Source: Microcoleus vaginatus HSN003 | GTDB lineage: Bacteria; Cyanobacteriota; Cyanobacteriia; Cyanobacteriales; Microcoleaceae | Direction: 5' to 3' | Length of the DNA stretch: 64,000 bases | Assembly (NCBI RefSeq): GCF_022701255.1 | Contig: NZ_CP031705.1 | Coordinates: 4,960,001-5,024,000, forward strand | Translations under genes and position numbers: made by a program | Shown: positions 6,542 to 58,717 of the stretch, piece after piece | How the letters are laid out: the number at the start of each line of letters is the position of its first letter | Numbering within the stretch: position 1 is the first letter of the stretch | The notes under the pieces: generated by a model | What the model was told of the DNA's origin: nothing | Database searches by the model: none | What the model saw: the letters and a program-made list of their open reading frames with translations, nothing else

Positions 6542-6615
6542 TTGACAAACTCAGTTTGCGATCGCTAAACTGAGCGAAAACTGACATTGACAATTCGATA
6601 AGTAAATTATATAAT
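6542..6615 (+). promoter_or_regulatory. NACHT gene promoter region with palindrome and a consensus promoter overlapping the start codon
   Basis: TTGACA at 6587-6592, a 17-bp spacer and TATAAT at 6610-6615 form a perfect sigma-70-type promoter whose -10 box overlaps the ATG at 6614. Further upstream TTGACA at 6542-6547 is followed by the palindrome CTCAGTTT-N9-AAACTGAG (about 6550-6574) centred on a GCGATCGC site, a plausible operator. Which promoter is used cannot be told from sequence. Confidence 0.5.
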
Positions 6616-9019
6616 GACCACCCTCAAAGCCTCTGAGGAGGGATTAGTAAAAATTAGGCAAGCTAGAAGAGAAAAGGGATCGACTATAGAAGACCCCAGA
6701 TGGCTAGTAGAAGCTAGTCAAACATTAGAGCCCGATCGAACTTGGACAGAGGCCGGGCCTTATGCCGATGGCCTCTCGCTGCCGACTTGGAGGCGTTTTT
6801 TACGAGGACAAGAACCTATTAAAGCCAATGCTTTCAAGGCTTTCTGCACGGTTTTGCAGTTGAATTGGGAAGAAATTGTCGATCGTCCTCCTTTAGCCCC
6901 CCCTTACCAAGAGGGGGTTGGGGGGGTTAGAGATTTTTGTCAACAGCCTATTGATTCGGTAGTCGAAGAGATACGGCAAAAATGCCACAGCAAAATCCAA
7001 CAGCTTTACAGCAAAATGCAACTGTTGGATATTGCACAGCCCGTTGATGTCAGCAACCTCTACGTTGAAGTCAACATTTTGGAGGAAATTAGCAGTTGGC
7101 AGCCGGGAGAAATTAGCGATTTACTGAGAGACTTCAACCCAGATGCGGATAACTTTAACCGCTTGGGTTTAGGCAAAGTACGCCAGAAACGAGTATCAGG
7201 ATTGGATGCGGTGAAATCTCACTCTAAACTAATGGTACTCGGCAAACCTGGTTCCGGTAAAACTACTTTTTTGAAACACATCGCCATTCAGTGCGATCGC
7301 GCCAAATTTGAAGCCAACAAAATACCGATTTTTATCTCTCTCAAAACCTTTGCGGAAATCGCTAATGTTGACTTATTAGAATATATCAGCGACGAATTTG
7401 CCAGTTGCGGAGTTGAGGCGCGAGCGCAAACTGAATTCGTACTCAGTCAAGGCAGAGGCTTGATTTTATTGGACGGCTTAGATGAAGTGCCAGAATCAGA
7501 TAGCGATGCAGTCGTCAGACAGATTCGTCAGTTTGTCCAAAAGTATTACAACAATCAGTTTATTATTACCTGTCGAATTGCCGCTTCTAAGTACAGATTT
7601 CACGACGAAGCCTTTACTTGTGTTGAGGTAGCCGATTTTAATAATAAGCAAATCGCTGCCTTTGCTCACAATTGGTTTGTGGCTTTTTCCCATAATCGGG
7701 AGGCAGGTAAAGCTTTAGCATCTCAATTTGTAGAGAAGCTAAAAATGAATAAAAATCAGCAAATCCGAGAACTGGCCGTAACGCCTATATTGTTGAATTT
7801 GACTTGTTTAGTATTCCAAGCCAAAGCAGATTTTCCATCCAACAGAGCCAAGTTGTACGAGGAAGGACTGGAAATTATGCTCAGAAAATGGGATGAAACC
7901 AGAGGCATTCAACGGGATGAAGTTTATCGCAACTTAAATTTTTCCCACAAGCAACATTTACTTGCTTTTGTGGCAGCTATTACTTTTGAACGGGGCGATT
8001 ACTTTTTTGAAAAAAACACAGTTCAACAATTGATTGGCGACTATCTAGCTAACTTGCCCGATGGCACAACTGACCCCGTTAAGTTCGAGATCCATAGTGA
8101 GGTTGTGCTGAAGGCGATCGAGGCACAACATGGATTATTAGTGGAGAGGGCAAGAGGGATTTATTCGTTTTCTCATCTAACATTTCAAGAGTATTTCACT
8201 GCTACAGAAATAGTTAACAATTCCCCTCCACAAGCTTTGAGAAAACTCGTCAGCCACCTAACCGAGAAGCGTTGGCGAGAAGTATTGTTCTTAGCAGTTG
8301 GGATGTTGCCAAAAGCTGATGACTTGTTACTGTCAATGAAACAGCAAGTGGATGGACTGGTCGCTGAGGATGAGCAGTTGCAGCAGTTCCTAAGGTGGGT
8401 AAACCAAAAATCCCTTTCTGTTGATTTTCCTTACAAACCTGCGGCCGTGAGATTCTTTTACTTTTCCCTTCTTCCATCCCTTGAGCTTGCTCTTCATCGT
8501 AACCCTGAAAGTTTCCTTGACCCAGCCCTTTACCTTGCCGTTAAACATACCTTTGATCCTGCTATTGAAATTAGCCTGGATCTTGTTCTTGACCTTGCCA
8601 TTTTGCCTGTACTCGACGGTGCTATTGACCCAGCCCTTAGTCTTGCCCACGACATTCTTCTTGTCCCTCTTGTTGAACCTGAATTAATGCAAGCACTGCA
8701 AGAACTTAAGAAACAGCTACCTCAGCCAGATGGTGACAAGGAAATATTTAGGCAATGGTGGCAAGCTAACGGACAAGTCTGGACTAGCGAATTAAGAAAA
8801 ATCATCATTTCCTATCGCAATATAGGTCACGATTGGCAATTTACCGAACAGCAGAAGTCATTGCTAAGGAAGTATTACGATGCTAATAAAGTGCTGGTAT
8901 ATTGCCTCAATAGCGGTTGTAATGTATCTCCTGCTGTGCGGCAGGAAATTGAGGAGACATTGCTGTTACCGATCGCAAATCTGCAAAAAATCGGTGACAA
9001 GTGTGATCGCCCGCTCTAA
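6614..9019 (+). CDS. NACHT-domain NTPase (NLR-like defence protein) with N-terminal HTH-like domain
   Basis: An 801-residue STAND NTPase. Residues 1-90 form a small HTH-like domain (SLPTWRRFLRGQEPIKANAF). The NACHT domain has Walker A GKPGSGKT (210-217), Walker B LILLDGLDEVPE (283-294) and a sensor-like ITCRIA; the helical part ends with FSHLTFQEYFTA. Residues about 622-687 are a low-complexity stretch rich in DPAL/DLAL steps, followed by a C-terminal domain with IGHDWQFTEQQ and LLRKYYDANK, as in other cyanobacterial NACHT proteins. Bacterial NACHT proteins can act in phage defence (family knowledge); a role here is inferred. Residues 94-104 are encoded by a dispersed repeat. The gene stands alone, divergent from the ATPase gene. 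Confidence 0.9.
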   Translation: MTTLKASEEGLVKIRQARREKGSTIEDPRWLVEASQTLEPDRTWTEAGPYADGLSLPTWRRFLRGQEPIKANAFKAFCTVLQLNWEEIVDRPPLAPPYQEGVGGVRDFCQQPIDSVVEEIRQKCHSKIQQLYSKMQLLDIAQPVDVSNLYVEVNILEEISSWQPGEISDLLRDFNPDADNFNRLGLGKVRQKRVSGLDAVKSHSKLMVLGKPGSGKTTFLKHIAIQCDRAKFEANKIPIFISLKTFAEIANVDLLEYISDEFASCGVEARAQTEFVLSQGRGLILLDGLDEVPESDSDAVVRQIRQFVQKYYNNQFIITCRIAASKYRFHDEAFTCVEVADFNNKQIAAFAHNWFVAFSHNREAGKALASQFVEKLKMNKNQQIRELAVTPILLNLTCLVFQAKADFPSNRAKLYEEGLEIMLRKWDETRGIQRDEVYRNLNFSHKQHLLAFVAAITFERGDYFFEKNTVQQLIGDYLANLPDGTTDPVKFEIHSEVVLKAIEAQHGLLVERARGIYSFSHLTFQEYFTATEIVNNSPPQALRKLVSHLTEKRWREVLFLAVGMLPKADDLLLSMKQQVDGLVAEDEQLQQFLRWVNQKSLSVDFPYKPAAVRFFYFSLLPSLELALHRNPESFLDPALYLAVKHTFDPAIEISLDLVLDLAILPVLDGAIDPALSLAHDILLVPLVEPELMQALQELKKQLPQPDGDKEIFRQWWQANGQVWTSELRKIIISYRNIGHDWQFTEQQKSLLRKYYDANKVLVYCLNSGCNVSPAVRQEIEETLLLPIANLQKIGDKCDRPL
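6889..6930 (+). repeat. Dispersed C/G-tract palindromic repeat inside the NACHT coding region
   Basis: A stretch of C residues, TTACCAAGAG and a stretch of G residues form a palindrome-like unit of the type scattered in intergenic DNA of filamentous cyanobacteria. Here it is in frame and encodes LAPPYQEGVGG between the HTH-like domain and the next helical region. Confidence 0.6.
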
Positions 9020-12396: not shown

Positions 12397-12438
12397 AGTC
12401 AACCGTCAACAGTCAACCGTCAACAGTCAACCGTCAAC
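12397..12438. repeat. Three exact 14-bp tandem repeats (AGTCAACCGTCAAC)
   Basis: The unit AGTCAACCGTCAAC is repeated three times without change; each unit is itself two similar heptamers. Short tandemly repeated heptamers are common between cyanobacterial genes. It lies between the SH3 terminator and the end of pyrB. Confidence 0.9.
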
Positions 12439-12480
12439 AATCATGAGGATTGCAACCGGAATTGATAAACAACTAACAGC

Positions 12481-13464: not shown

Positions 13465-13492
13465 ATTTTAGATTTTAGATTTTAGATTTTAG
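13465..13492. repeat. Four tandem ATTTTAG heptamers just upstream of pyrB
   Basis: ATTTTAG is repeated four times directly before the pyrB start codon, so it lies in the pyrB leader. A shorter version of the same heptamer run occurs before recJ at about 22040-22057. Confidence 0.9.
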
Positions 13493-13634
13493 ATTGACTC
13501 AATCAGGACGGACGATGGGTTTGGAACTTGCTTGTACGCCCGCTCTGCTGTCGCCTTTGAATGTTCGATCGACATTTAGGGATTGCGATCAACAGTATCC
13601 AACAATTTTTGATCGCTTTTGCGGTCAGTAGAGT

Positions 13635-26230: not shown

Positions 26231-26423
26231 GATTTTTTAAGAAGTAATAAGGAAAAAGGAAGGGGAAAGAAGGAAGAAGCAATTTGTTATTTGTAATAAG
26301 CTGTCTGGCATCTTGCACTGGATTTTTCAGGCGGGCGGGACGCCCAACCCTACTCCCCACAAGAATTTCATCAAACTTGACTGTAAAATTTAGATGCGAC
26401 TGGGCTTAACCAATCACCAATAA

Positions 26424-26463
26424 CTAATGATTAATGATTAATGATTAATCACTAATCACTAAT
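26424..26463. repeat. Heptamer repeat (TAATGAT / TAATCAC) at the end of the GT4 gene
   Basis: TAATGAT is repeated three times and then drifts into TAATCAC twice. The last part overlaps the 3' end of the glycosyltransferase gene and supplies its final codons (VISD). The upstream gap 26231-26423 holds a CCCAACCCTACTCCCCACAAG dispersed repeat also seen at about 38975. Confidence 0.75.
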
Positions 26464-28121
26464 ATATCAAATTTCACCAAATAGAGTAGAGTCCGATAGA
26501 GGTCGGCTAATTCTTGCTCGTTTTTAACGTAGCGTCGGATAATTTCCCCCACGCTGATCGCACCTTCCTGCTTAATTGTATCCAATATCTCCATCTGAAT
26601 GCTAACAGATCTTCTCCTATCCTCACCAAAACTGGTAAACCTAATTGTCTGTACCTGCTTTAAAAGTTCTGGTGTGGCGATCGCACCCAGACTCAGCATC
26701 ATCTCATTGCTTAAACTTCTAGTCGCATAATTACCCAATACCCGAAACGGATCATCGCCTAGGGGATAAGGCGGTTTCCCGGGTTTTAAAGGTGCTGACT
26801 CCGGTGCCGCCAGGCGAATTTCTGCTAATTCCTGCCACAATTGTTCGTAAGCAGCAATTACTACTTTCCAATCATAAATTTCCCTCGCCCTTTGTCTCGC
26901 ATTTTCCCCCATCCGCTTTCTCAATTCTGGGTTTTCAATTAATTGGCACAAGGCCAGGGTGCAAGCCTCAATGTCAACTGCTGTGGCGAGGGAAGTGTGA
27001 CCCATGTAAGTCGGCCAATTTAAGCTGCCGTCAAGATAATTTAGGGCTAAATCTAAACAAGATTCTGGGGGCGGAATGAGTGTGGGAATGCGGAAGCCGT
27101 CTATTTCGTGGCGTACAGATTCTTTGTATCCGTTCCAATCGGAGACTATGGCCGGCAGTCCGTTCGCCATGGCTTCTATTGGTGTCAGTCCAAAGGATTC
27201 TTGAATGTTGTCGGAAAGCGAAATGAAAATGTCTGCCGCCGACCAAATATTTACTCTAATTTCCGGCTGTCTCCCATCTAAAAAAATAGCATTCACCGAG
27301 GGACAAAATATTTGCGCGCTAGTTTTAAAGTCGGGTTCTTCTCTCGGATCTTCGATCCAACCGGCTTGAATTAAATGGATTTTGGCTTTTGTGTGTTGTG
27401 AGGCCCGTTCTAGGGCGATGTACATGGGTACCGGATGAGCTTTTGCAGAAAAAGTCAATCGACCCACAAATAACACAACAATATCTTCGGGAGAAATGCC
27501 GAGTTCTTGCCGCAGTTGGTGGCGACTCTTAACTGCTTCCACACCCTGCGGAAACGCGCTGAAATCCACTCCTAGGGGAATAACGGGGAATTTGACCAAA
27601 ATTTCCGGTTTACCGCCGTTACGCTGCGCTAAATATTCAGACCACTCCCTCATAACTCCCTCTACTGCTGTTTTCACGGCTGTAGAGGTGCAGATCAGGG
27701 CGTCCCAAGGCTGCATGGGTGCGGTTATCAAATCGCCGATCGCCCCCATGATGTATTTTGTACCGATCGTGTGAGTAACGCCACAAACGCTGTAGGCCCG
27801 CTGATCCACAAATCTGCGCGCCCAAACCATCTGTGACAGAACCGGATCGGGTCGGTAAATTGTGCCCGGTTGAGATAGCAAATCCGGTCGTTCCATTGGA
27901 ATCCAGCGGACTTTCCGAGCTTTTTGCAGCCAAGGTTGGATGTGCGAACAAAACTCCTTAAAGGTTGTTTTGCTATCGGCGCAACAATAGAGAGAGTTAG
28001 CGGTTCCGTGTTGGACTAAGCTTTTGAGAAACCCTTCTCCGGCTGAATGACGCCCCAGAAGTTTTTGCCCTCCGGTGTGGTAACCCTCTTTGTTGTATAA
28101 AACCGCTGCCGTTGTATCCAT
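26445..28121 (-). CDS. Glycosyltransferase family 4 (GT-B fold) with C-terminal extension
   Basis: A 558-residue protein. The N-terminal half contains HSAGEGFLKSLVQHG and CVCGVTHTIGT-like segments; the donor-binding half has VVLFVGRLTFSAKAHP, AADIFISLSDNIQESFGLTP and EAMANGLPAIVSDWNGYKE, with the ExFGLxxxE motif of GT4 enzymes. The last 120 residues are an extra helical part with winged-helix-like features (GAISVGEIIRRYVKNEQELA). The sugar and acceptor cannot be told; surface polysaccharide or glycolipid synthesis is possible. Confidence 0.88.
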   Translation of the reverse strand: MDTTAAVLYNKEGYHTGGQKLLGRHSAGEGFLKSLVQHGTANSLYCCADSKTTFKEFCSHIQPWLQKARKVRWIPMERPDLLSQPGTIYRPDPVLSQMVWARRFVDQRAYSVCGVTHTIGTKYIMGAIGDLITAPMQPWDALICTSTAVKTAVEGVMREWSEYLAQRNGGKPEILVKFPVIPLGVDFSAFPQGVEAVKSRHQLRQELGISPEDIVVLFVGRLTFSAKAHPVPMYIALERASQHTKAKIHLIQAGWIEDPREEPDFKTSAQIFCPSVNAIFLDGRQPEIRVNIWSAADIFISLSDNIQESFGLTPIEAMANGLPAIVSDWNGYKESVRHEIDGFRIPTLIPPPESCLDLALNYLDGSLNWPTYMGHTSLATAVDIEACTLALCQLIENPELRKRMGENARQRAREIYDWKVVIAAYEQLWQELAEIRLAAPESAPLKPGKPPYPLGDDPFRVLGNYATRSLSNEMMLSLGAIATPELLKQVQTIRFTSFGEDRRRSVSIQMEILDTIKQEGAISVGEIIRRYVKNEQELADLYRTLLYLVKFDILVISD

Positions 28122-39133: not shown

Positions 39134-39157
39134 ACCAACAGATAACAAATAACAAAT
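39134..39157. repeat. Heptamer repeat AACAAAT, three copies
   Basis: AACAAAT is repeated three times followed by AACC, ending 18 bp before the small gene at 39175, so it sits in its leader. Confidence 0.85.
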
Positions 39158-39174
39158 AACAAATAACCATAACT

Positions 39175-39381
39175 ATGGACAGCAAAGATCTAGCCAAATA
39201 TATCGAAGCAAAGGACGGGATTTCCAAACCTTGGCTGTTGGTGCAACTGCGGCTGAAAAAATTGCAAGAAAGGCGATCGGAGATTTCTGCTGAAGAGTAT
39301 ATGACAGAACTTACGGACATTCACAAAGATTTAATGAATCTGGGGGAATGGTGGCTGGGTATCGAGGATGAGGTTTTCTAG
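39175..39381 (+). CDS. Small helical protein of unknown function after the CO2-uptake operon
   Basis: A 68-residue protein reading MDSKDLAKYIEAKDGISKPW, LLVQLRLKKLQERRSEISAE and EWWLGIEDEVF. It is charged, without a membrane segment, and looks like a two-helix protein. It follows the Cup gene by 220 bp that include two repeats, so membership of the operon is uncertain. It does not resemble CupS. The 3' end overlaps the end of hicB by four bases on the other strand. Confidence 0.6.
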   Translation: MDSKDLAKYIEAKDGISKPWLLVQLRLKKLQERRSEISAEEYMTELTDIHKDLMNLGEWWLGIEDEVF

Positions 39382-39596
39382 GCGATTTGAAGAATGCTAG
39401 GTGCGGGGATGGGTTCACCTTCTTCCTGCCAAGCTTCTAGATACATTTCGAGCACTTCTTCGCCATGTCGGATGGCTTCTTCGCGGGTTTGGCCGTGGGT
39501 ACAGGGCATGACAACGCGATCGGCAAACTCTGGAATCGTCACGAGGAAAAGTTGATCCTCGTCAGACCATTGGACGATCATACTGTATCGATTCAT
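39378..39596 (-). CDS. hicB: HicB-type antitoxin
   Basis: A 72-residue protein: MNRYSMIVQWSDEDQLFLVT, IPEFADRVVMPCTHGQTREE, then AIRHGEEVLEMYLEAWQEEG. This is the partially RNase H-like HicB fold in its short form without a DNA-binding tail. ATG 39596 overlaps the former hicA stop by ATGA. The frame continues upstream into hicA only because hicA has a frameshift, so the longer frame is not the real protein. Confidence 0.88.
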   Translation of the reverse strand: MNRYSMIVQWSDEDQLFLVTIPEFADRVVMPCTHGQTREEAIRHGEEVLEMYLEAWQEEGEPIPAPSILQIA

Positions 39597-39815
39597 GAAT
39601 CTTCCTCCTTTAACTCGTCGAGTTCGGCTAACAATATTGCCAACTGCTTCTCTCTCATAGCGTGGCACATCATCTCCGTCTTTGCCTGGAATTGTTAATG
39701 TCTTCCCAATCAAAGGATGCTGCCATCTCTCATAGCTGCCTTATCCGCGTTTTGGCAAATAAATAAAGCCCTCACGGGTAATCTGAGCTTTTAACTCGCG
39801 AATTTTTCTAGGCAT
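39593..39815 (-). pseudogene. hicA: HicA toxin gene inactivated by a stop codon and a frameshift
   Basis: From ATG 39815 the frame reads MPRKIRELKAQITREGFIYL-PKRG, then TAA at 39741-39743 where HicA has Lys or Gly, then SYERWQHPLIGKTLTIPGKD and VPRYEREAVGNI. HicA toxins carry the catalytic His in GSHERW; here it is Tyr (SYERW). The true C-terminus LLAELDELKEEDS with a stop at 39593-39595 lies in another frame, so there is also a shift near 39640. Three separate lesions make an active mRNase impossible. Confidence 0.85.
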
Positions 39816-41530: not shown

Positions 41531-43759
41531 TCAAATGGTAGAATTCTCTGGAACTAACAACATCCGCGATTCTATTTCTTCCCAGGTTTTTGCTGATATT
41601 CTCACTGCTGCTTCTTTGCATTCGATGATGAGATGATTTGCAGATAAATAATCTCCCAGCGCCTCTGCTTCTTCCTTAGATAATTTGACTATTTCTGGAT
41701 TGAGATGGAGTGCATGACACCAGGTATCTACAAGGCGATGGGCAAATGCTAAGTGTATTTGTTTATGCTGCTCACGATCGGGCAATTGCTTCTCAAGTTC
41801 TCTCAGTTGAGCAATTAGTTCAGTCCAGTTCACCTCCTTGAAGATTTTAAATTTTTTAAGTTCTTCGGCCAACGCGATGGCCAACGCGTTGGCGTCGGCG
41901 TTGGCGTCGGCGTTGGCGTAGGCGAGGGCGTTGGCGTAGGCGATGGCGAGGGCGGCGATGGCGGCGTTGGCGTTGGCGAGGGCGGCGTGGGCGATGGCCT
42001 TGGCGTTGGCGTTGGCGGCTTTGGCGGCGTGGGCTATGGCGTAGGCGGCGTAGGCGTAGGCGGCGTAGGCCTTGGCCTTGGTGTTGGCGTAGGCGAGGGC
42101 GTAGGCGATGGCGAGGGCGTTGGCGTAGGCGATGGCGAGGGCGATAGCGTTGGCGATCGCCACAGCACGTTTACCGACAGGCTTAAAATCACCTTCCGAG
42201 CCATTAGTCGCTGCCTCTGCCCATTGCAATAGCCCTTGCAACTTCGGCGTGTTAATGTACTTTTGAGCCTCTTTTTCCATTAACAGCAGCAAGTCATCAG
42301 CCCCATTTTTTGAACGCACCAACCCCGCTACCAACAAAAACACCTCTCGCCAGCGTCGATCGGAAAGATGATCGGTAACTAACTGCTCAATTAAATTATT
42401 ATCAGCAATATATTGCGCCGTGAGATATTCCTGAAGCGTCAAGTGCGAAAACGAGTACACATCCTCAGCTCGTTCTACCAAAATCCCCTGTTGAACAGCA
42501 ATAGCTTTCAGAACCGCCTCACCGTCTAAATGCTTCGGTGCATTCAAATTGCCTGCTAAAAAAGTTTTGATTTCCTCAACCACTTCTCGCTGCGAAAAAA
42601 ACAGCTTATCAGTGTCAAAACCAGTATAAGCAATCTCCGATAACAAACTCTCCTCTAACTCCGTGCTGAGTCCTTGATAAATTTCATCTCGCAGAATCCG
42701 CTTTTCCGCCGCCCATTCTTCCAACAATATCCGCAAAGCGGATTTGTAAAGAACACTGCGATTATTAGGAAAATTTTGCGATCGATCGTAAGTCAGGCAG
42801 AGGAAAGTTAGCAATAATGGCGTGTGGGCTAACTCTTTAGCTGCTGCATATTCTGGCTTTTGCAATAACTCCCAACATTTTTGAGCCGTTCCCGCTTGTT
42901 TATCAACCTCAGACTGAAACCAGTTACCAATAAATTGCTCAATTTGAGTATCGTCAAAGTCTGCAAGTTTTACATCAGTAAAGCGTTGAAAGTTGTTTCT
43001 GTAAGCGGCTGTGCGACAAGAGACAATGAAGCTATTTTTATCATAGCGGTCAACAAAATTTTGAATTTTACTAATGACCTCATTTGTGTTGACTGTCGGC
43101 ACTTCATCCAATCCATCCAGCAAGATTAACAGTTTTCCCTGCTCTAATGCCTTAGCGATAAATTGCTCAGAAGAGGGAAAGCCACAAATGCTAAACTCTT
43201 CAACAATTAATTTTTCTATGTCTATCTGGCTAGATGTAAAGCTTTTAAGTTCGATAAAAACAGGAATGCGATCGTGCTTAAATCCGCCTTTTTTGCCCTT
43301 CAGTGCTTCGAGTCCTATTTTCCGCAAAAATGTAGATTTTCCGGCTCCGGGCTGCCCTAAAACCATCAAATATTGCTTCTGATTAGCAATTTTTAGCCCT
43401 TCTTGCTTCTGGCAATCTTGCTGCTGAAAACTTCGCTTGTTTGCTTTGCGGTAAGCTTCTTCTAAATTTTGGATTGATTCAAAACTGCGGATTTCTTGCT
43501 CATCCAAAAACTGCACAGCAGTATAAACCGATTCTAATGGCACAGCCTCCCGCATTCCCAATGCTTTCAGAATGCCGTGACGCTTGAAGTAGCGTTTGCC
43601 GTATTCCCCTGATGCCGTGTAAATTAGCTGTTTAGTTTTCTCATCTAGCTTTTTCCCCATCGAGCCGAGAAACTTGCCACCAGTTTCAAAGACTGACTGG
43701 AAAATGGGGAGGGCGATACCGCTAACACAACTTATAGCAAAGGGTTCAATTCCTGTCAT
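41531..43759 (-). CDS. NACHT-domain NTPase (NLR-like defence protein) with alanine-alternating repeat
   Basis: A 742-residue STAND NTPase. Residues 1-125 are an N-terminal helical domain (FETGGKFLGSMGKKLDEKTK, then YGKRYFKRHGILKALGMREA) seen in other cyanobacterial NACHT proteins. Walker A is GQPGAGKS (135-142), Walker B LILLDGLDEVPT (211-222), sensor VSCRTAAYR; the helical part ends FSHLTLQEYLTA. Residues about 532-630 alternate Ala with Tyr/Asn/Lys/Ile/Leu/Asp. The C-terminal ~110 residues (LRELEKQLPDREQ, YLSANHLIIECKEAAVRISA) are the same type of domain as in the 6614-9019 protein. An anti-phage role is likely by family but unproven. Confidence 0.9.
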   Translation of the reverse strand: MTGIEPFAISCVSGIALPIFQSVFETGGKFLGSMGKKLDEKTKQLIYTASGEYGKRYFKRHGILKALGMREAVPLESVYTAVQFLDEQEIRSFESIQNLEEAYRKANKRSFQQQDCQKQEGLKIANQKQYLMVLGQPGAGKSTFLRKIGLEALKGKKGGFKHDRIPVFIELKSFTSSQIDIEKLIVEEFSICGFPSSEQFIAKALEQGKLLILLDGLDEVPTVNTNEVISKIQNFVDRYDKNSFIVSCRTAAYRNNFQRFTDVKLADFDDTQIEQFIGNWFQSEVDKQAGTAQKCWELLQKPEYAAAKELAHTPLLLTFLCLTYDRSQNFPNNRSVLYKSALRILLEEWAAEKRILRDEIYQGLSTELEESLLSEIAYTGFDTDKLFFSQREVVEEIKTFLAGNLNAPKHLDGEAVLKAIAVQQGILVERAEDVYSFSHLTLQEYLTAQYIADNNLIEQLVTDHLSDRRWREVFLLVAGLVRSKNGADDLLLLMEKEAQKYINTPKLQGLLQWAEAATNGSEGDFKPVGKRAVAIANAIALAIAYANALAIAYALAYANTKAKAYAAYAYAAYAIAHAAKAANANAKAIAHAALANANAAIAALAIAYANALAYANADANADANALAIALAEELKKFKIFKEVNWTELIAQLRELEKQLPDREQHKQIHLAFAHRLVDTWCHALHLNPEIVKLSKEEAEALGDYLSANHLIIECKEAAVRISAKTWEEIESRMLLVPENSTI
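41870..42165. repeat. Low-complexity GGCGTTGGC/GGCGTAGGC array inside the NACHT gene
   Basis: About 295 bp made almost only of six- and nine-base units of the form GGCGNNGGC (GGCGTTGGC, GGCGTAGGC, GGCGATGGC, GGCGAGGGC). All units are multiples of three, so gain or loss keeps the frame. It encodes the alternating alanine segment on the minus strand. Confidence 0.92.
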
Positions 43760-44160: not shown

Positions 44161-46389
44161 TTACCCGAATTTCCCGGCCGTCGAGGCAATTACAAAGGCG
44201 GCGTAAGTGAGGATGTATCCCACAGTAAAGTGAGCCAAACCAACAACACGACCTTGGAGGATGGACAAAGCAACAGGCTTGTCTTTCCAGCGAACCAAGT
44301 TAGCCAAAGGAGTGCGCTCGTGAGCCCAAACCAAAGTCTCGATCAACTCTTGCCAGTAACCTCTCCAAGAGATCAGGAACATGAAACCAGTTGCCCAAAC
44401 AAGGTGTCCGAATAAGAACATCCAGGCCCAGACAGACAAGTTGTTAGTACCATACGGGTTGTAACCGTTGATCAACTGAGCAGAATACAGCCAGAGGTAA
44501 TCGCGGAACCAGCCCATCAGGTAGGTAGAAGACTCATTGAACTGAGCCACGTTACCTTGCCAGATGCCTAGGTGCTTCCAGTGCCAGTAGAACGTTACCC
44601 AACCCAGGGTGTTCAGCATCCAGAACATAGCCAGGAAGAAAGAGTCAAACGCAGCGACATCGCAAGTACCGCCACGGCCGGGGCCGTCGCAAGGGAAAGC
44701 ATAGCCGAAGTCTTTCTTGTCCGGCATCAGCTTAGTACCGCGAGCGTCGAGAGCTCCCTTGACCAAGATCAATGTGGTGGTGTGCAAGCCTAGTGCGATC
44801 GCATGGTGAACCAAGAAATCGCCAGGTCCGATCGCCAAGAACAGAGAGTTAGTACCGCTGTTAATCGCATCCAACCAGCCTGGGAGCCATACGTTGCCGT
44901 AGTTCGGCCAAGCGGTAGAAGCAAGGCTGTCAGGGTTAGACAACAGCACGTCCATGCCGTAGAGAGCTTTTCCGTGAGCAGCTTGGATGAACTGTGCGAA
45001 CACTGGTTCAATCAAGATTTGCTTTTCAGGAGTTCCGAAAGCGACTACAACGTCATTGTGAACGTACAGGCCGAGAGTGTGGAAGCCCAAGAACAGCGAC
45101 ACCCAGCTCAAGTGAGAGATAATCGCTTCTTTGTGCTGCAACACGCGATCGAGCACGTTGCCTTTATTTGCTTCAGGATCGTAGTCCCGCACCAAGAAGA
45201 TAGCTCCGTGGGCGAAAGCGCCGACCATGATGAATCCAGCAATGTACTGGTGGTGGGTGTAAAGCGCAGCCTGAGTCGTGAAGTCCTTCGCCATGAAAGC
45301 GTAGGGAGGCATCGCGTACATATGCTGTGCTACCAAGGAGGTAATTACGCCCAAAGCAGCGAGGTGAATTCCCAGTTGGAAGTGCAGCGAGTTGTTGTAG
45401 GTTTCATACAACCCTTGGTGAGGCAAGTTGAACTGTCCTTCACTCTTGCCGCCGACCAAACCAGCCTTAGAATCCAACATCTCTTTGATGCTGTGACCGA
45501 TACCGAAGTTAGTCCGGTACATATGACCGGCAACGATAAACAGAACTGCGATCGCCAAGTGGTGGTGAGCGATGTCTGTCAGCCACAGGGATTCTGTTTG
45601 AGGGTGGAAGCCACCCAAGAAAGTCAGAATTGCGGTTCCAGCGCCTTCGGAAGTACCGAAGACATGGTTCGCTGCATCTGGATTCTCGGCGTATACGCCC
45701 CAGTTACCACTGAAGAACGGAGCCAAACCAGCCGGGTGAGGCGGGGTTGACAGGAAGTTTTCCCAACCTACGTGCTGTCCGCGAGATTCGGGGATAGCAA
45801 CGTGAACCATGTGACCAGTCCAAGCCAAAGAGCTGACACCGAACAAACCAGCCAAGTGGTGGTTGAGGCGAGATTCAGCATTTTTGAACCAAGACAAGCT
45901 AGGGCGGTACTTGGGTTGGAGGTGCAACCAACCTGCGAACAGGAAGACAGCGGCCAGCAGTAACAAGAAGATAGCTCCTTGATACAGGTCGGCATTTGTC
46001 CGAATCCCTTGGGTGAACCACCAATGGTAGACACCGGAGTAAGAGATGTCTACTGGGTTAGAAGCGCCCCCTTGAGTGAAAGCTTCTACTGCAGGAGCGC
46101 CGAATTGCGGGTCCCAAATCGCGTGAGCGATCGGGCGGACGTTTAGGGGGTCTTTAATCCACTGTTCAAAGTTACCTTGCCATGCTACGTGGAACAGGCT
46201 GCCCGATGTCCACAAGAAAATGATTGCTACGTGGCCGAAGTGAGAAGCAAAAATCTTTTGGTAAAGATTTTCTTCGGTCATGCCATCGTGGCTTTCAAAG
46301 TCGTGTGCTGTGGCAATCCCGTACCAGATCCGCCGTGTGGTCGGGTCTTGGGCAAGGTCTTGGCTAAATTTTGGAAATTTCGTTGCCAT
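44161..46389 (-). CDS. psaB: Photosystem I P700 chlorophyll a apoprotein A2
   Basis: PsaB with PsaA forms the photosystem I core that binds P700, A0, A1 and the FX cluster. The 742-residue sequence starts [20 protein letters not shown] and contains 11 membrane helices, many chlorophyll-ligand His residues, and the FX cysteine loop [18 protein letters not shown]. The length is canonical. It follows psaA by 110 bp, so both come from one transcript, closed by a strong terminator. Confidence 0.99.
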
Positions 46390-49436: not shown

Positions 49437-51062
49437 GTGATTGGCATCAATTGGCACAGAACGGTTGCGGGCAGGCTGCTGGCATTGTTGGCAGCAGTAT
49501 TAATTTTGGGTTTAGCAAGTTGTGGCGCGGGCCATCCCGAATTGCCCAAATCAGCGAACAAGAGCGGCTCAGCTACCGCCCCGGTAAACAGGATCTCAGA
49601 GGTTTCTCCCCCAGAAGCCATTCAACAACTGCGTAAGGCTCTAGAAATCTACCAGCCTCAAATTAGTATTTTGAATCCATTACCTGACGAAGTGCTTCAG
49701 GATATAGATGTGTCTGTTCAGTTCCAAGTTAAGGGCTTGCCCATTTTCAAAGATCCAAACTTGGGTTTGGGTCCCCATCTGCAAGTTTTATTAGACAACC
49801 AACCTTATGCAGCAGTTTACGACATCAACCAACCTTTAACGCTGTCGAATTTACAACCCGGAACCCATACCCTGCAGGTGTTTGCCGCTCACCCTTGGGA
49901 AGAAAGCTTTAAAAACGAAGGTGCCGCGGCTCAAACCACCTTTCACGTTTTTACCAAAACTGACGACAATAATCCCCATCGAACATTGCCCCTATTAACG
50001 TACAACAGCCCCCAAGGCAGCTACGGCGCAGAACCCATCCTGCTCGACTTTTACTTGACAAATGCCCCCCCGCACCAAGTGGCGCAAGAAAATTCCCAAG
50101 ATGAAATACTCGATTGGAAAATTAGAGCCACAGTCAACGGCGAAAGCTTTACGATCGACAAGTGGCAACCTATATATCTTAAAGGATTCAAATCAGGGAA
50201 AAACTGGGTACAGCTAGAATTAATTGACGAACGCGGAAATATCGTCAAAAACGCCTTTAATAATACAGCCAGACTGATCAATTACCAACCGCTCGGCCAA
50301 GACACTCTTTCAAAATTAGTGCGGGGCGAACTAACAACATCAGAAACTCGCGCTATAGTCGATCGTAGCTACCAAGCCCCCGAACCCGCACCAACCCCAA
50401 CCCCGGAACCGACACCGACACCTGCATTAGAAAAAACACCAGTTGTCCAACCCTCACCAGCGGTTCCAGAAACCCCTGTTACCCCACCGACCTTAGAGCC
50501 CACAGTCGCTCCCGAAGTTGCTCCCATTCAAGTAATAGAACCGACACCGACAGCCACCCCCCAACTCGAAGCGCCCAAAATTGTAGAACCAGTTCAAGTA
50601 ATAGAACCGACACCGACAGCCACCCCCCAACTCGAAGCACCGAAAATTGTAGAACCAGTTCAAGTAATAGAACCAACACCGACAGCAACTCCACCTTTAC
50701 AAACCCCGGAAGTTGTTGCACCCGTTAAAATAATAGAACCGACCCCAACAGCATCTCCCCAAACAAAAAAACAGGAATATAAAGGATACTACAATCGGTT
50801 CCGCAACTTCTTGCGTGAAGATCCCCAACCTGCTACTCCTTCATATCCGCCAACCCTGCCAGAAATAACAGAAAAAGCTCCAGTACCAAAAGTAGTCGCT
50901 CCCGCGATACCAGAAGAGTCTCCCAATCTTGTACCGCCAACGCCACCAGTTGCCGCTGAAACTCCTAGCCAGCCAACCACCCAATTAGCCACTCCTGAAA
51001 CAACAGTTTCCGAACCCGAAAATCAGCCAAAATCCGAACAAAAAGTCGAATTTGCCACCTAA
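49437..51062 (+). CDS. Lipoprotein with proline-rich tandem repeats, unknown function
   Basis: A 541-residue protein with a GTG start (AGGAG 11 bases upstream). The signal peptide LLALLAAVLILGLASC has a lipobox with Cys29. Residues about 60-285 are a beta-rich region with two Ig-like parts (ISILNPLPDEVLQDIDVSVQ, LQPGTHTLQVFAAHPWEESF, KWQPIYLKGFKSGKNWVQLE). From residue 310 the chain is Pro/Thr-rich and holds three and a half copies of a 22-residue repeat (VQVIEPTPTATPQLEAPKIV). It probably sits on the outer or thylakoid side of a membrane with a wall-spanning tail. The role is unknown. Confidence 0.82.
   Translation: MIGINWHRTVAGRLLALLAAVLILGLASCGAGHPELPKSANKSGSATAPVNRISEVSPPEAIQQLRKALEIYQPQISILNPLPDEVLQDIDVSVQFQVKGLPIFKDPNLGLGPHLQVLLDNQPYAAVYDINQPLTLSNLQPGTHTLQVFAAHPWEESFKNEGAAAQTTFHVFTKTDDNNPHRTLPLLTYNSPQGSYGAEPILLDFYLTNAPPHQVAQENSQDEILDWKIRATVNGESFTIDKWQPIYLKGFKSGKNWVQLELIDERGNIVKNAFNNTARLINYQPLGQDTLSKLVRGELTTSETRAIVDRSYQAPEPAPTPTPEPTPTPALEKTPVVQPSPAVPETPVTPPTLEPTVAPEVAPIQVIEPTPTATPQLEAPKIVEPVQVIEPTPTATPQLEAPKIVEPVQVIEPTPTATPPLQTPEVVAPVKIIEPTPTASPQTKKQEYKGYYNRFRNFLREDPQPATPSYPPTLPEITEKAPVPKVVAPAIPEESPNLVPPTPPVAAETPSQPTTQLATPETTVSEPENQPKSEQKVEFAT
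50523..50762 (+). repeat. 66-bp tandem repeats in the lipoprotein gene
   Basis: Units start at 50523, 50589, 50655 and 50721 (partial). The first two are nearly identical in DNA and the third and fourth diverged. Each encodes PVQVIEPTPTATPQLEAP-KIVE or a variant. Confidence 0.92.
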
Positions 51063-57381: not shown

Positions 57382-57399
57382 TTCAGTACACCAATAAAA

Positions 57400-57434
57400 G
57401 TTAACAGTTAACTGTTAACAGTTAACTGTTAACA
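57400..57434. repeat. Tandem GTTAACA/GTTAACT heptamers, self-complementary
   Basis: GTTAACAGTTAACT is followed by the same unit and GTTAACA. Each heptamer is near-palindromic, so the block can fold on itself. It lies between the KaiB-like gene and the end of pilT. Confidence 0.85.
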
Positions 57435-57442
57435 CTCCCCCT

Positions 57443-58717
57443 TTAGACTCGACCTCGAAGCATCTGAGCCATTTCGTTCGGGTACGGCGAGTTTTCTACA
57501 CAAAGTTCTTCAGTAATCCGACCTTCTTGATAAAGGCCATAGAGCGACTTATTCATCGTCGTCATGCCTTCATAAGTATCTTTGATCATAATTTGATTAA
57601 TTTCCTCATTCTGGCCCTTCAGAATGTATTCCTTAACCACGTCGGTATTGATCAAAACGTCGTGGAAAGCAGCCCGCTTCCCGTCTGTGGTTTTGCACAG
57701 CAGTTGAGCAATAATTGCCACTAGGGATTCGGAAAGTGAAACCCGTATGGCCTCCTGTTCTTCAGGCCCGAACATATCCAGAATCCGGTTCAGAGTTTTA
57801 ATCGCACTGTTGGTGTGCAGGGTTCCTGCAACTAAGTGACCGGTCTGAGAGGCTTTGAGGGCGATTTCCACCGTCTCTCTGTCCCGAATTTCTCCTACTA
57901 GCATCATGTCCGGGTCTTGCCGCAGAGCGCCTTTGAGAGCGTTCATAAACTTCAGGGTGTGCCTGCCCACTTCCCGGTGCTTGATCAAGGATTTTTTGCT
58001 TTCGTGTACGAATTCTACCGGGTCTTCGATCGTGATGATATTGTAGGCTTTATTCTTATTGATGTAGTCGATCATCGCAGCCAAGGTGGTAGACTTACCC
58101 GAACCTGTCGGGCCCGTCACCAAAATCAGCCCTTTGTGGTAGCCGGATATTTTCTTAAAGACCTCCGGCAGCTTCAATTCCTCCAGTGTCATTATTTTGG
58201 CAGGAATTAGCCGCAGCACCATCGCCGGCCCGGCTAAGGAGTCCATGCAACTGATCCGAATCCGCACGAACCCGAAGTCGAAAGCGCCGTCAAAGTCTAG
58301 GGTTTTTTGGAAAATTTCAATTTCTTCATCGCTCATGCACTCGCGCAACCAGCCAAAAAACGTATCTAAATCGGTCGGTGGATAGCCGATGTCGGCAATT
58401 TCGCCTCGCGTGCGGAAGCGGGGCACTTCGTTTACGCCGAGGTGAAGGTCGGATACTCCTTCGTCTTTGGCTCGGAGGACGAGCTCTTTCAAAGTCGGAG
58501 GGCCGCCGTTGCTAGAGATCGGGTTTTTAGGTGTGGCGAAGGATTGCGGCGGCGGTGCTGGTGCTGGTGCTGGTGCTGGTGCTGGTGCGGGCGGCGGTGC
58601 GGGCGGCATTCCTGCTGCTCTGGGGGGCATCCCGGGAGCTGGAGGGCGGGGCATTCCTGGCGGTGGGGGAGCTCCGGGTACAGGCGGGCGAGGAGCTGGC
58701 GGATGCTGCTGTGTCAT
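57443..58717 (-). CDS. pilT: Type IV pilus twitching ATPase PilT with proline-rich N-terminus
   Basis: PilT drives pilus retraction. The 424-residue protein has Walker A GPTGSGKST, Asp box IITIEDPVEFVHE, Walker B MMLVGEIRDRETVEIAL and His box GHLVAGTLHT, and the terminal motif region YEGMTTMNKSLY. The first ~75 residues are an extra Pro/Ala-rich tail (APGMPPRAAG, APAPAPAPAP) not in E. coli-type PilT; the APAP part comes from five GGTGCT hexamers at 58554-58583. Cyanobacteria have several PilT paralogues, so this may not be the main retraction motor. Confidence 0.93.
   Translation of the reverse strand: MTQQHPPAPRPPVPGAPPPPGMPRPPAPGMPPRAAGMPPAPPPAPAPAPAPAPAPPPQSFATPKNPISSNGGPPTLKELVLRAKDEGVSDLHLGVNEVPRFRTRGEIADIGYPPTDLDTFFGWLRECMSDEEIEIFQKTLDFDGAFDFGFVRIRISCMDSLAGPAMVLRLIPAKIMTLEELKLPEVFKKISGYHKGLILVTGPTGSGKSTTLAAMIDYINKNKAYNIITIEDPVEFVHESKKSLIKHREVGRHTLKFMNALKGALRQDPDMMLVGEIRDRETVEIALKASQTGHLVAGTLHTNSAIKTLNRILDMFGPEEQEAIRVSLSESLVAIIAQLLCKTTDGKRAAFHDVLINTDVVKEYILKGQNEEINQIMIKDTYEGMTTMNKSLYGLYQEGRITEELCVENSPYPNEMAQMLRGRV

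Follow-up and report, generated by a model that had tools for sequence, protein, structure and literature searches.

We analysed a window of 64,000 nucleotides from Microcoleus vaginatus HSN003, in which a gene on the minus strand encodes a 742-residue protein with two domains recognised by Pfam (Table 1). NACHT (PF05729) scored 54.3 bits against a cut-off of 26.7, bearing out the assignment to the STAND NTPases made in the original prediction, and NCH2 (PF22727) scored 56.1 bits against a cut-off of 27. Walker A and acidic Walker B residues were present, with G135, G140, K141, T143, D215 and E219 invariant in 40 homologues. Orthologues in genomes G011, G022, G004 and G047 were 88, 84, 86 and 84% identical. 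Pfam recognised no effector domain in the protein and gave no WD, ANK or TPR match and no C-type lectin fold. The antiphage model PDC-S60 matched the core only (1e-15, residues 112-463), as did the NCBIfam model EruA (residues 199-454, 41.6 bits against a cut-off of 1000). We infer a role in defence from family resemblance. A photosystem I PsaA/PsaB protein gene adjoins the receptor gene, and a HicB-like antitoxin gene (26.1 bits, just below the cut-off of 27) lies near it.

An AlphaFold model built from 40 aligned homologues had a mean pLDDT of 82. In Foldseek the model matched NLRC4 best among PDB entries, with NOD2 and NLRP3 next; E-values started at 2.1e-11 and query-normalised TM scores of the NLR matches spanned 0.24-0.43, indicating an NLR-type fold. 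The array described below therefore sits behind the ATPase switch, in the place of the sensor in NLRs. The upstream border of the segment is a conserved edge, KPVGKR, whose R531 was at least 90% conserved in 40 homologues. NCH2 was found in 67 of 292 cyanobacterial genomes, in 65 of them above cut-off, and in none of 14 control genomes.

Table 1. Features of the window discussed in the text (positions in the window; residues of the encoded protein)
Feature	Position	Strand	Residues	Basis
Gene of the 742-residue NACHT-NCH2 protein	41531-43759	minus		ORF and Pfam
NACHT NTPase domain	42911-43372	minus	130-283	Pfam PF05729, Foldseek
Conserved edge KPVGKR, upstream border of the segment	42167-42184	minus	526-531	Homologue alignment
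GCC-NNC array, alternating small/variable segment (proposed hypervariable recognition segment)	41867-42166	minus	532-631	
Period-6 tandem repeat	41886-42155			TRF
33-bp block, first copy in window order	41921-41953	minus		Exact repeat within array
33-bp block, second copy	42110-42142	minus		Exact repeat within array
NCH2 domain	41555-41818	minus	648-735	Pfam PF22727
Photosystem I PsaA/PsaB protein gene	44161-46389	minus		
HicB-like antitoxin gene	39378-39713	minus		
Second NACHT-NCH2 gene (comparator, not part of the array)	6614-9019	plus		Pfam NACHT and NCH2 above cut-off
Segment of the second NACHT-NCH2 gene	8462-8683		about 617-690	
Other tandem arrays: 66-bp repeat (84-96% matches), GGTGCT hexamer array, several 7-bp arrays	50527-50762; 58554-58600; 12397-12443; 13465-13495; 26419-26464; 39137-39167; 57395-57434			TRF

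The array of about 300 bp lay where the original prediction had located it, and its units were multiples of three bases, as had also been proposed. TRF described a period-6 tandem repeat of 46.5 copies with 68% matches (score 130). Parsed at GCC codons, the array fell into units of 18 kinds, of which 29 had two codons, 9 had three and 3 had four, so that the predicted unit sizes of 6 or 9 bp were nearly right. The claim that every second residue is Ala held for most of the segment, which reads Ala-x with Tyr, Asn, Ile, Leu, Lys, His or Asp as x; the 9-bp units are Ala-Ala steps that shift the alternation, and it is therefore not strict. The pattern (GGCGNN)x4+GGC had 13 matches in the 6.76-Mb genome, every one in the array, while its reversed control had none. 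Other tandem arrays detected by TRF in the window are listed in Table 1.

An 11-codon (33-bp) block was present twice, exactly, inside the array (codon offsets 8 and 71), and in 1000 shuffles of the unit order a repeated run of four units arose 10 times. Block copying was likewise significant in L017 (12/1000) and was not significant in the other 8 of the 10 arrays tested. Linkage of silent bases to neighbouring codons, a sign of unit copying, was clear in one (L186, p 0.001, next codon) of the six arrays with enough silent variation for the test. Between two Ala codons we counted AAC 198, TAC 139 and ATC 137 times (together 474 of 651). At the small positions GCC made up 475 of 605 codons, and the departures from it were 79 nonsynonymous to 35 synonymous, near the neutral expectation. 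The whole fits copying and shuffling of a few founder hexamers on top of background mutation.

Each species is represented by a single genome in the whole-genome collection, and the comparisons of arrays are between species. Two relatives carry the receptor gene beside psaB and orf39914, as in the window: L011 (also L156) from the draft genome of Tychonema sp. BBK16 and L010 (also L157) from the Microcoleus MAG EPA2, a metagenome assembly in which repeats may be misassembled. The shared neighbours make the three genes positional orthologues. Their NACHT parts were 93% identical, with dS of 0.14 (window-L010), 0.16 (window-L011) and 0.11 (L010-L011), whereas the segments were 28-62% identical, depending on pair and alignment. 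Among related species, the NACHT part thus changes far more slowly than the segment, which supports the original prediction in part. Identical steps added or removed, as that prediction had it, account for only a minor share of the differences. It was the variable residues themselves that differed among relatives, and in L011 most of the pattern differed too. Differing codons between the window and L010 were nonsynonymous to synonymous 38:40 in the NACHT part, 34:4 in the array and 14:2 in the tail.

When compared with shuffles that keep parity, the window-L010 array similarity was no better than chance (53 of 60 shuffles reached the observed value), window-L011 was slightly better (1/60) and L010-L011 was better (0/60). 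We extended this to 42 close pairs from 53 loci with at least 88% flank identity, for which the median array identity was 0.48. Array similarity exceeded the shuffle mean by more than 2 SD in 18 of the 42, 14 of which were reached by none of 60 shuffles, and did not in the remaining 24. Unit order is therefore largely, though not wholly, lost; turnover of the arrays is incomplete, and the statement that arrays are mostly no better than shuffled ones was rejected as too strong. The Hormoscilla loci L183 and L192, with an identical array and a near-identical flank (0 synonymous changes), are uninformative on rate. Values by codon position in the window-L010 arrays were 0.30, 0.22 and 0.11 for positions 1, 2 and 3. 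That the third position is the most conserved in arrays was true for close C-rich pairs and failed over 378 pairs (0.39, 0.30, 0.43).

We gathered 155 loci (search matches plus 80 stretches taken by coordinates), which yielded 90 distinct NACHT-family loci for analysis. The cyanobacterial homologues carry an alternating small/large segment at the equivalent place behind the core, 51 to 165 residues long in 43 homologues. It is built of Ala with Asn, Tyr or Ile in the clade of the window, of Leu with Asp/Ser or Ala/Arg/Asp in the sister clade, whose segments are rich in Leu, Asp, Ser and Arg and not in Asn/Tyr, and of Ala with Ser, Ile or Arg in L191. In genome G081 (L139, L141, L142), AAN, AAAK or AAD/AAR steps replace the dipeptides, and the period is therefore not always two. 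On contig C48 of G004, the neighbouring receptor copies L012 and L136 had quite different segments.

An array of C-ending codons, defined as at least 70% over some 50 codons and below 30% elsewhere, was found behind the core in 26 of the 90 loci, with differing residues. In 31 distinct arrays, a biased sample as they were selected by C content, GCC accounted for 802 of the 868 Ala codons, compared with 175 of 1195 in the upstream parts of these genes. The corresponding counts in these arrays and upstream were 300/337 and 190/749 for AAC, 228/243 and 111/517 for TAC, and 220/261 and 204/1133 for ATC. Position 3 had the lowest entropy in 73 of the 88 segments scanned, against 51 control regions, a biased comparison to which we give no weight because the interval had been picked by C content. 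Arrays with unrelated residues were also mostly C-ending, such codons otherwise making up 6-25% in those genes. The cause may be at the codon level, at the DNA level or historical. Third-base C as a strict requirement was rejected, both because L101 had third-base entropies of 0.35 and 0.00 in its two phases (C 32, T 28) and because the conserved, frozen relatives described below lack C use.

The exact pattern (GCCNNC)x5+GCC occurred in 24 of 386 cyanobacterial genomes and its reversed control in 14. The 30 loci inspected, one or two per genome, were NACHT-type ORFs in five genomes (that of the window, G447, G226, G321 and G406); the remainder were GC-rich low-complexity stretches, short ORFs and an Ala-rich membrane-type protein (G272), so that such arrays are not confined to NACHT genes. 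Examples of GCC-NNC-type arrays outside recognisable NACHT ORFs were short ORFs in G022 (L212, L233), a (GCCATC)n stretch in G060 (L220) and the G272 protein (L218).

Some segments have lost the DNA repeat and appear frozen. The second NACHT-NCH2 gene of the window (L039) has a segment that is non-repetitive, still alternating and 91% identical in a homologue of the same genus. In the sister-clade pairs L025-L026 and L039-L048, segment identities were 0.94 and 0.91 with flanks at 0.94 and 0.93; since these segments are as conserved as their flanks, lying at this position is not enough to make a segment change. Replacement does at times affect frozen segments too, segment identity in the other 10 frozen pairs being 0.23-0.74 at flank identities of 0.73-0.88.

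Alternation was tested in 59 of the 90 loci; in the other 31 no edge motif was located or too little tail was left, and they were excluded. Residue-volume alternation was significant in 49 of the 59 proteins, including 19 of the 28 in which C-ending codons were below 35%. Split by clade, these 19 with period-2 alternation at p<0.05 were 16 of the 23 proteins from the sister clade and 3 of the 5 from the own clade. Autocorrelation was positive at lags 2, 4 and 6 and negative at lags 1, 3 and 5, and was near zero in a control stretch. The best alternating interval of the whole protein coincided with the segment in 49 of 59 proteins; where C-ending codons were below 35%, this was so for 16 of the 23 sister-clade proteins, against 2.1 expected, and for 4 of the 5 own-clade proteins, against 0.4 expected. 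As alternation persists where the DNA repeat is gone, it is kept at the protein level, and slippage of DNA is not sufficient to explain it, given that the silent sites there carry no repeat.

The original prediction had proposed modelling the structure of the array; AlphaFold drew helices of low confidence, with pLDDT below 60 at residues 551-620. The segment of the frozen paralogue in the window was also drawn as helices (pLDDT 41-69 over residues 621-690). A period of two, strict over more than 70 residues in L013, would be beta-like, whereas the models are helical at low confidence.

The NCH2 tail also had relatively more amino-acid changes than the NACHT part. Its excess over the upstream flank was significant (p<0.05) in 27 of 30 listed pairs with at least 90% flank identity, pairs that share sequences and are not independent. 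Of the 10 pairs for which tail omega was estimated, only window-L010 exceeded 1 (2.30, from few changes), and the remaining 9 had values of 0.29-1.00, so that relaxed constraint on the NCH2 tail is possible.

We conclude that this segment of a bacterial NLR-like protein is real, that it changes fast and that it is constrained at the protein level. We lean modestly towards the reading that it is the hypervariable recognition segment of an NLR-like receptor, renewed by in-frame turnover of hexamers and kept diverse by selection. The NACHT ATPase switch and the helical parts after it would be followed by the segment and then by NCH2, and the segment, in the NLR sensor position behind the core, would most likely be the hypervariable recognition part. 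Its two-residue modules would each combine a small residue (mostly Ala, GCC) with a large variable one (mostly Asn, Tyr or Ile; AAC, TAC or ATC), and gain, loss, block copying and shuffling of these 6-bp units would all leave the reading frame intact. Slippage or unequal recombination would provide the motor, slippage being a likely one. Selection would favour new variants if the segment binds a changing target, most likely a phage product, and binding would then switch the ATPase. A recognition role seems the likeliest reading of the segment.

Several other explanations were weighed against recognition. New segments could come in from other strains, from paralogues or from plasmid copies by recombination through the conserved edges, not by slippage in place. 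We regard this as unlikely, although the segments of L010 and L011 are largely dissimilar at a flank dS of 0.11, relatives lie on plasmids (Nostoc HK-01, Calothrix 336/3, Acaryochloris) and G004 has a neighbouring second copy with a different segment. A donor array with the exact pattern is absent elsewhere in the genome, and tail dS was not consistently higher than flank dS. Such exchange accounts for the spread of arrays and not for their origin, and it can act together with slippage.

It is also rather doubtful that the segment is a tolerated spacer linking the ATPase core to NCH2, with hexamers that slip freely and vary neutrally and with no part in recognition. Small/large alternation is retained in relatives without DNA repeats, frozen segments can match their flanks in conservation, a few large residues (N, Y, I) dominate and the adjoining NCH2 also changes relatively fast, all of which a spacer would not predict. 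It would nevertheless agree with the low pLDDT over residues 551-620, the near-neutral departures from GCC, the spread of segment lengths in the 43 homologues, and the breaks in the dipeptide rule made by the Ala-Ala steps of the window and the AAN/AAAK arrays of L139 and L141.

An assembly function is less probable still. Here the alternating, often Asn/Tyr-rich stretch would form silk- or amyloid-like beta sheets joining activated receptors, and its variation would set self-recognition between copies or alleles. The beta-strand-like autocorrelation, which includes the non-repetitive relatives, and the strict alternation of L013 are consistent with it. AlphaFold, however, drew low-confidence helices in both the array and the frozen paralogue, sister-clade segments have a Leu/Asp/Ser/Arg-rich composition, and the Ala-Ala steps in the window break the register.

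Diversity-generating retroelements (DGRs) act by adenine-directed mutagenesis of AAC, and the variable positions of the array, mostly the first two bases of NNC codons, are reminiscent of it. Template-directed mutagenesis by a DGR is nonetheless highly improbable: all four RVT_1 hits in the genome carry a group II intron maturase domain, the 27-base pattern occurs in the array only, leaving no second copy as template (one deviating from the pattern would be missed), and the departures from GCC (ACC, GTC, CCC, TCC) are not adenine changes. The selfish array that the original prediction had offered as an alternative was rejected as a dispersed element, the exact pattern occupying a single genomic site and homologues carrying the segment at the equivalent place, and it is further undercut by an alternation that outlives the DNA repeat.

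The proposed recognition segment can be set beside several known systems. Phase variation by simple sequence repeats in bacteria is mostly on/off switching by frameshift. It shares with the array short tandem units in a coding region; the units of the array, however, keep the frame and alter sequence content. Fungal NLRs of the Podospora HNWD family (HET-D/HET-E) have hypervariable, internally conserved WD, ANK or TPR repeats under positive selection (PMC4986451). They are also STAND/NACHT receptors with C-terminal tandem repeats, and the array can be likened to their hypervariable positions inside conserved units and to the repeat shuffling termed concerted evolution (PMC4986451). As in that family, the repeat segment diverges much faster than the NACHT part, with 18 of 42 pairs staying above the shuffles. 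Unlike it, our units are two residues (6 bp) and not whole repeats of known fold, and we compared species, whereas polymorphism within a species is documented for HNWD (PMC4986451).

Within bacteria, DGRs diversify lectin domains of NACHT/STAND proteins (PMC10907252; related PMC7159879). These proteins resemble ours as bacterial NACHT proteins with a hypervariable putative sensor, and differ in having a reverse transcriptase and a C-type lectin fold, neither of which was found here. The antiphage protein bNACHT25 has a C-terminal helical domain, NCH1 (PMC12169576). It and EruA share the NACHT core with the window protein, which differs from them in having NCH2 and the array and no recognised effector domain. 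A search of open-access papers gave no description of such a segment among the matches listed.

NLR immunity in fungi and plants is characterised by hypervariable sensors, and the bacterial route to them that we found described in the literature searched is the DGR. The segment raises a structural question, namely what kind of fold could keep a strict two-residue period for more than 70 residues, and a question about DNA, namely why unrelated arrays are mostly C-ending in genes that otherwise make such sparing use of these codons. We tentatively suggest, as a possibility short of probable, that turnover of C-ending hexanucleotides, and no reverse transcriptase, diversifies the sensor in a widespread family of NLR-like proteins of cyanobacteria. 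Each unit would contribute one small and one free residue, so that a combinatorial recognition surface of period two is built up in frame, and a segment could exist either as a plastic array or in a frozen, conserved form, with passage between the two. If true, this DGR-independent hexamer route would offer a simple model of sensor evolution, and a testable one, because the arrays can be deleted or exchanged as one piece.
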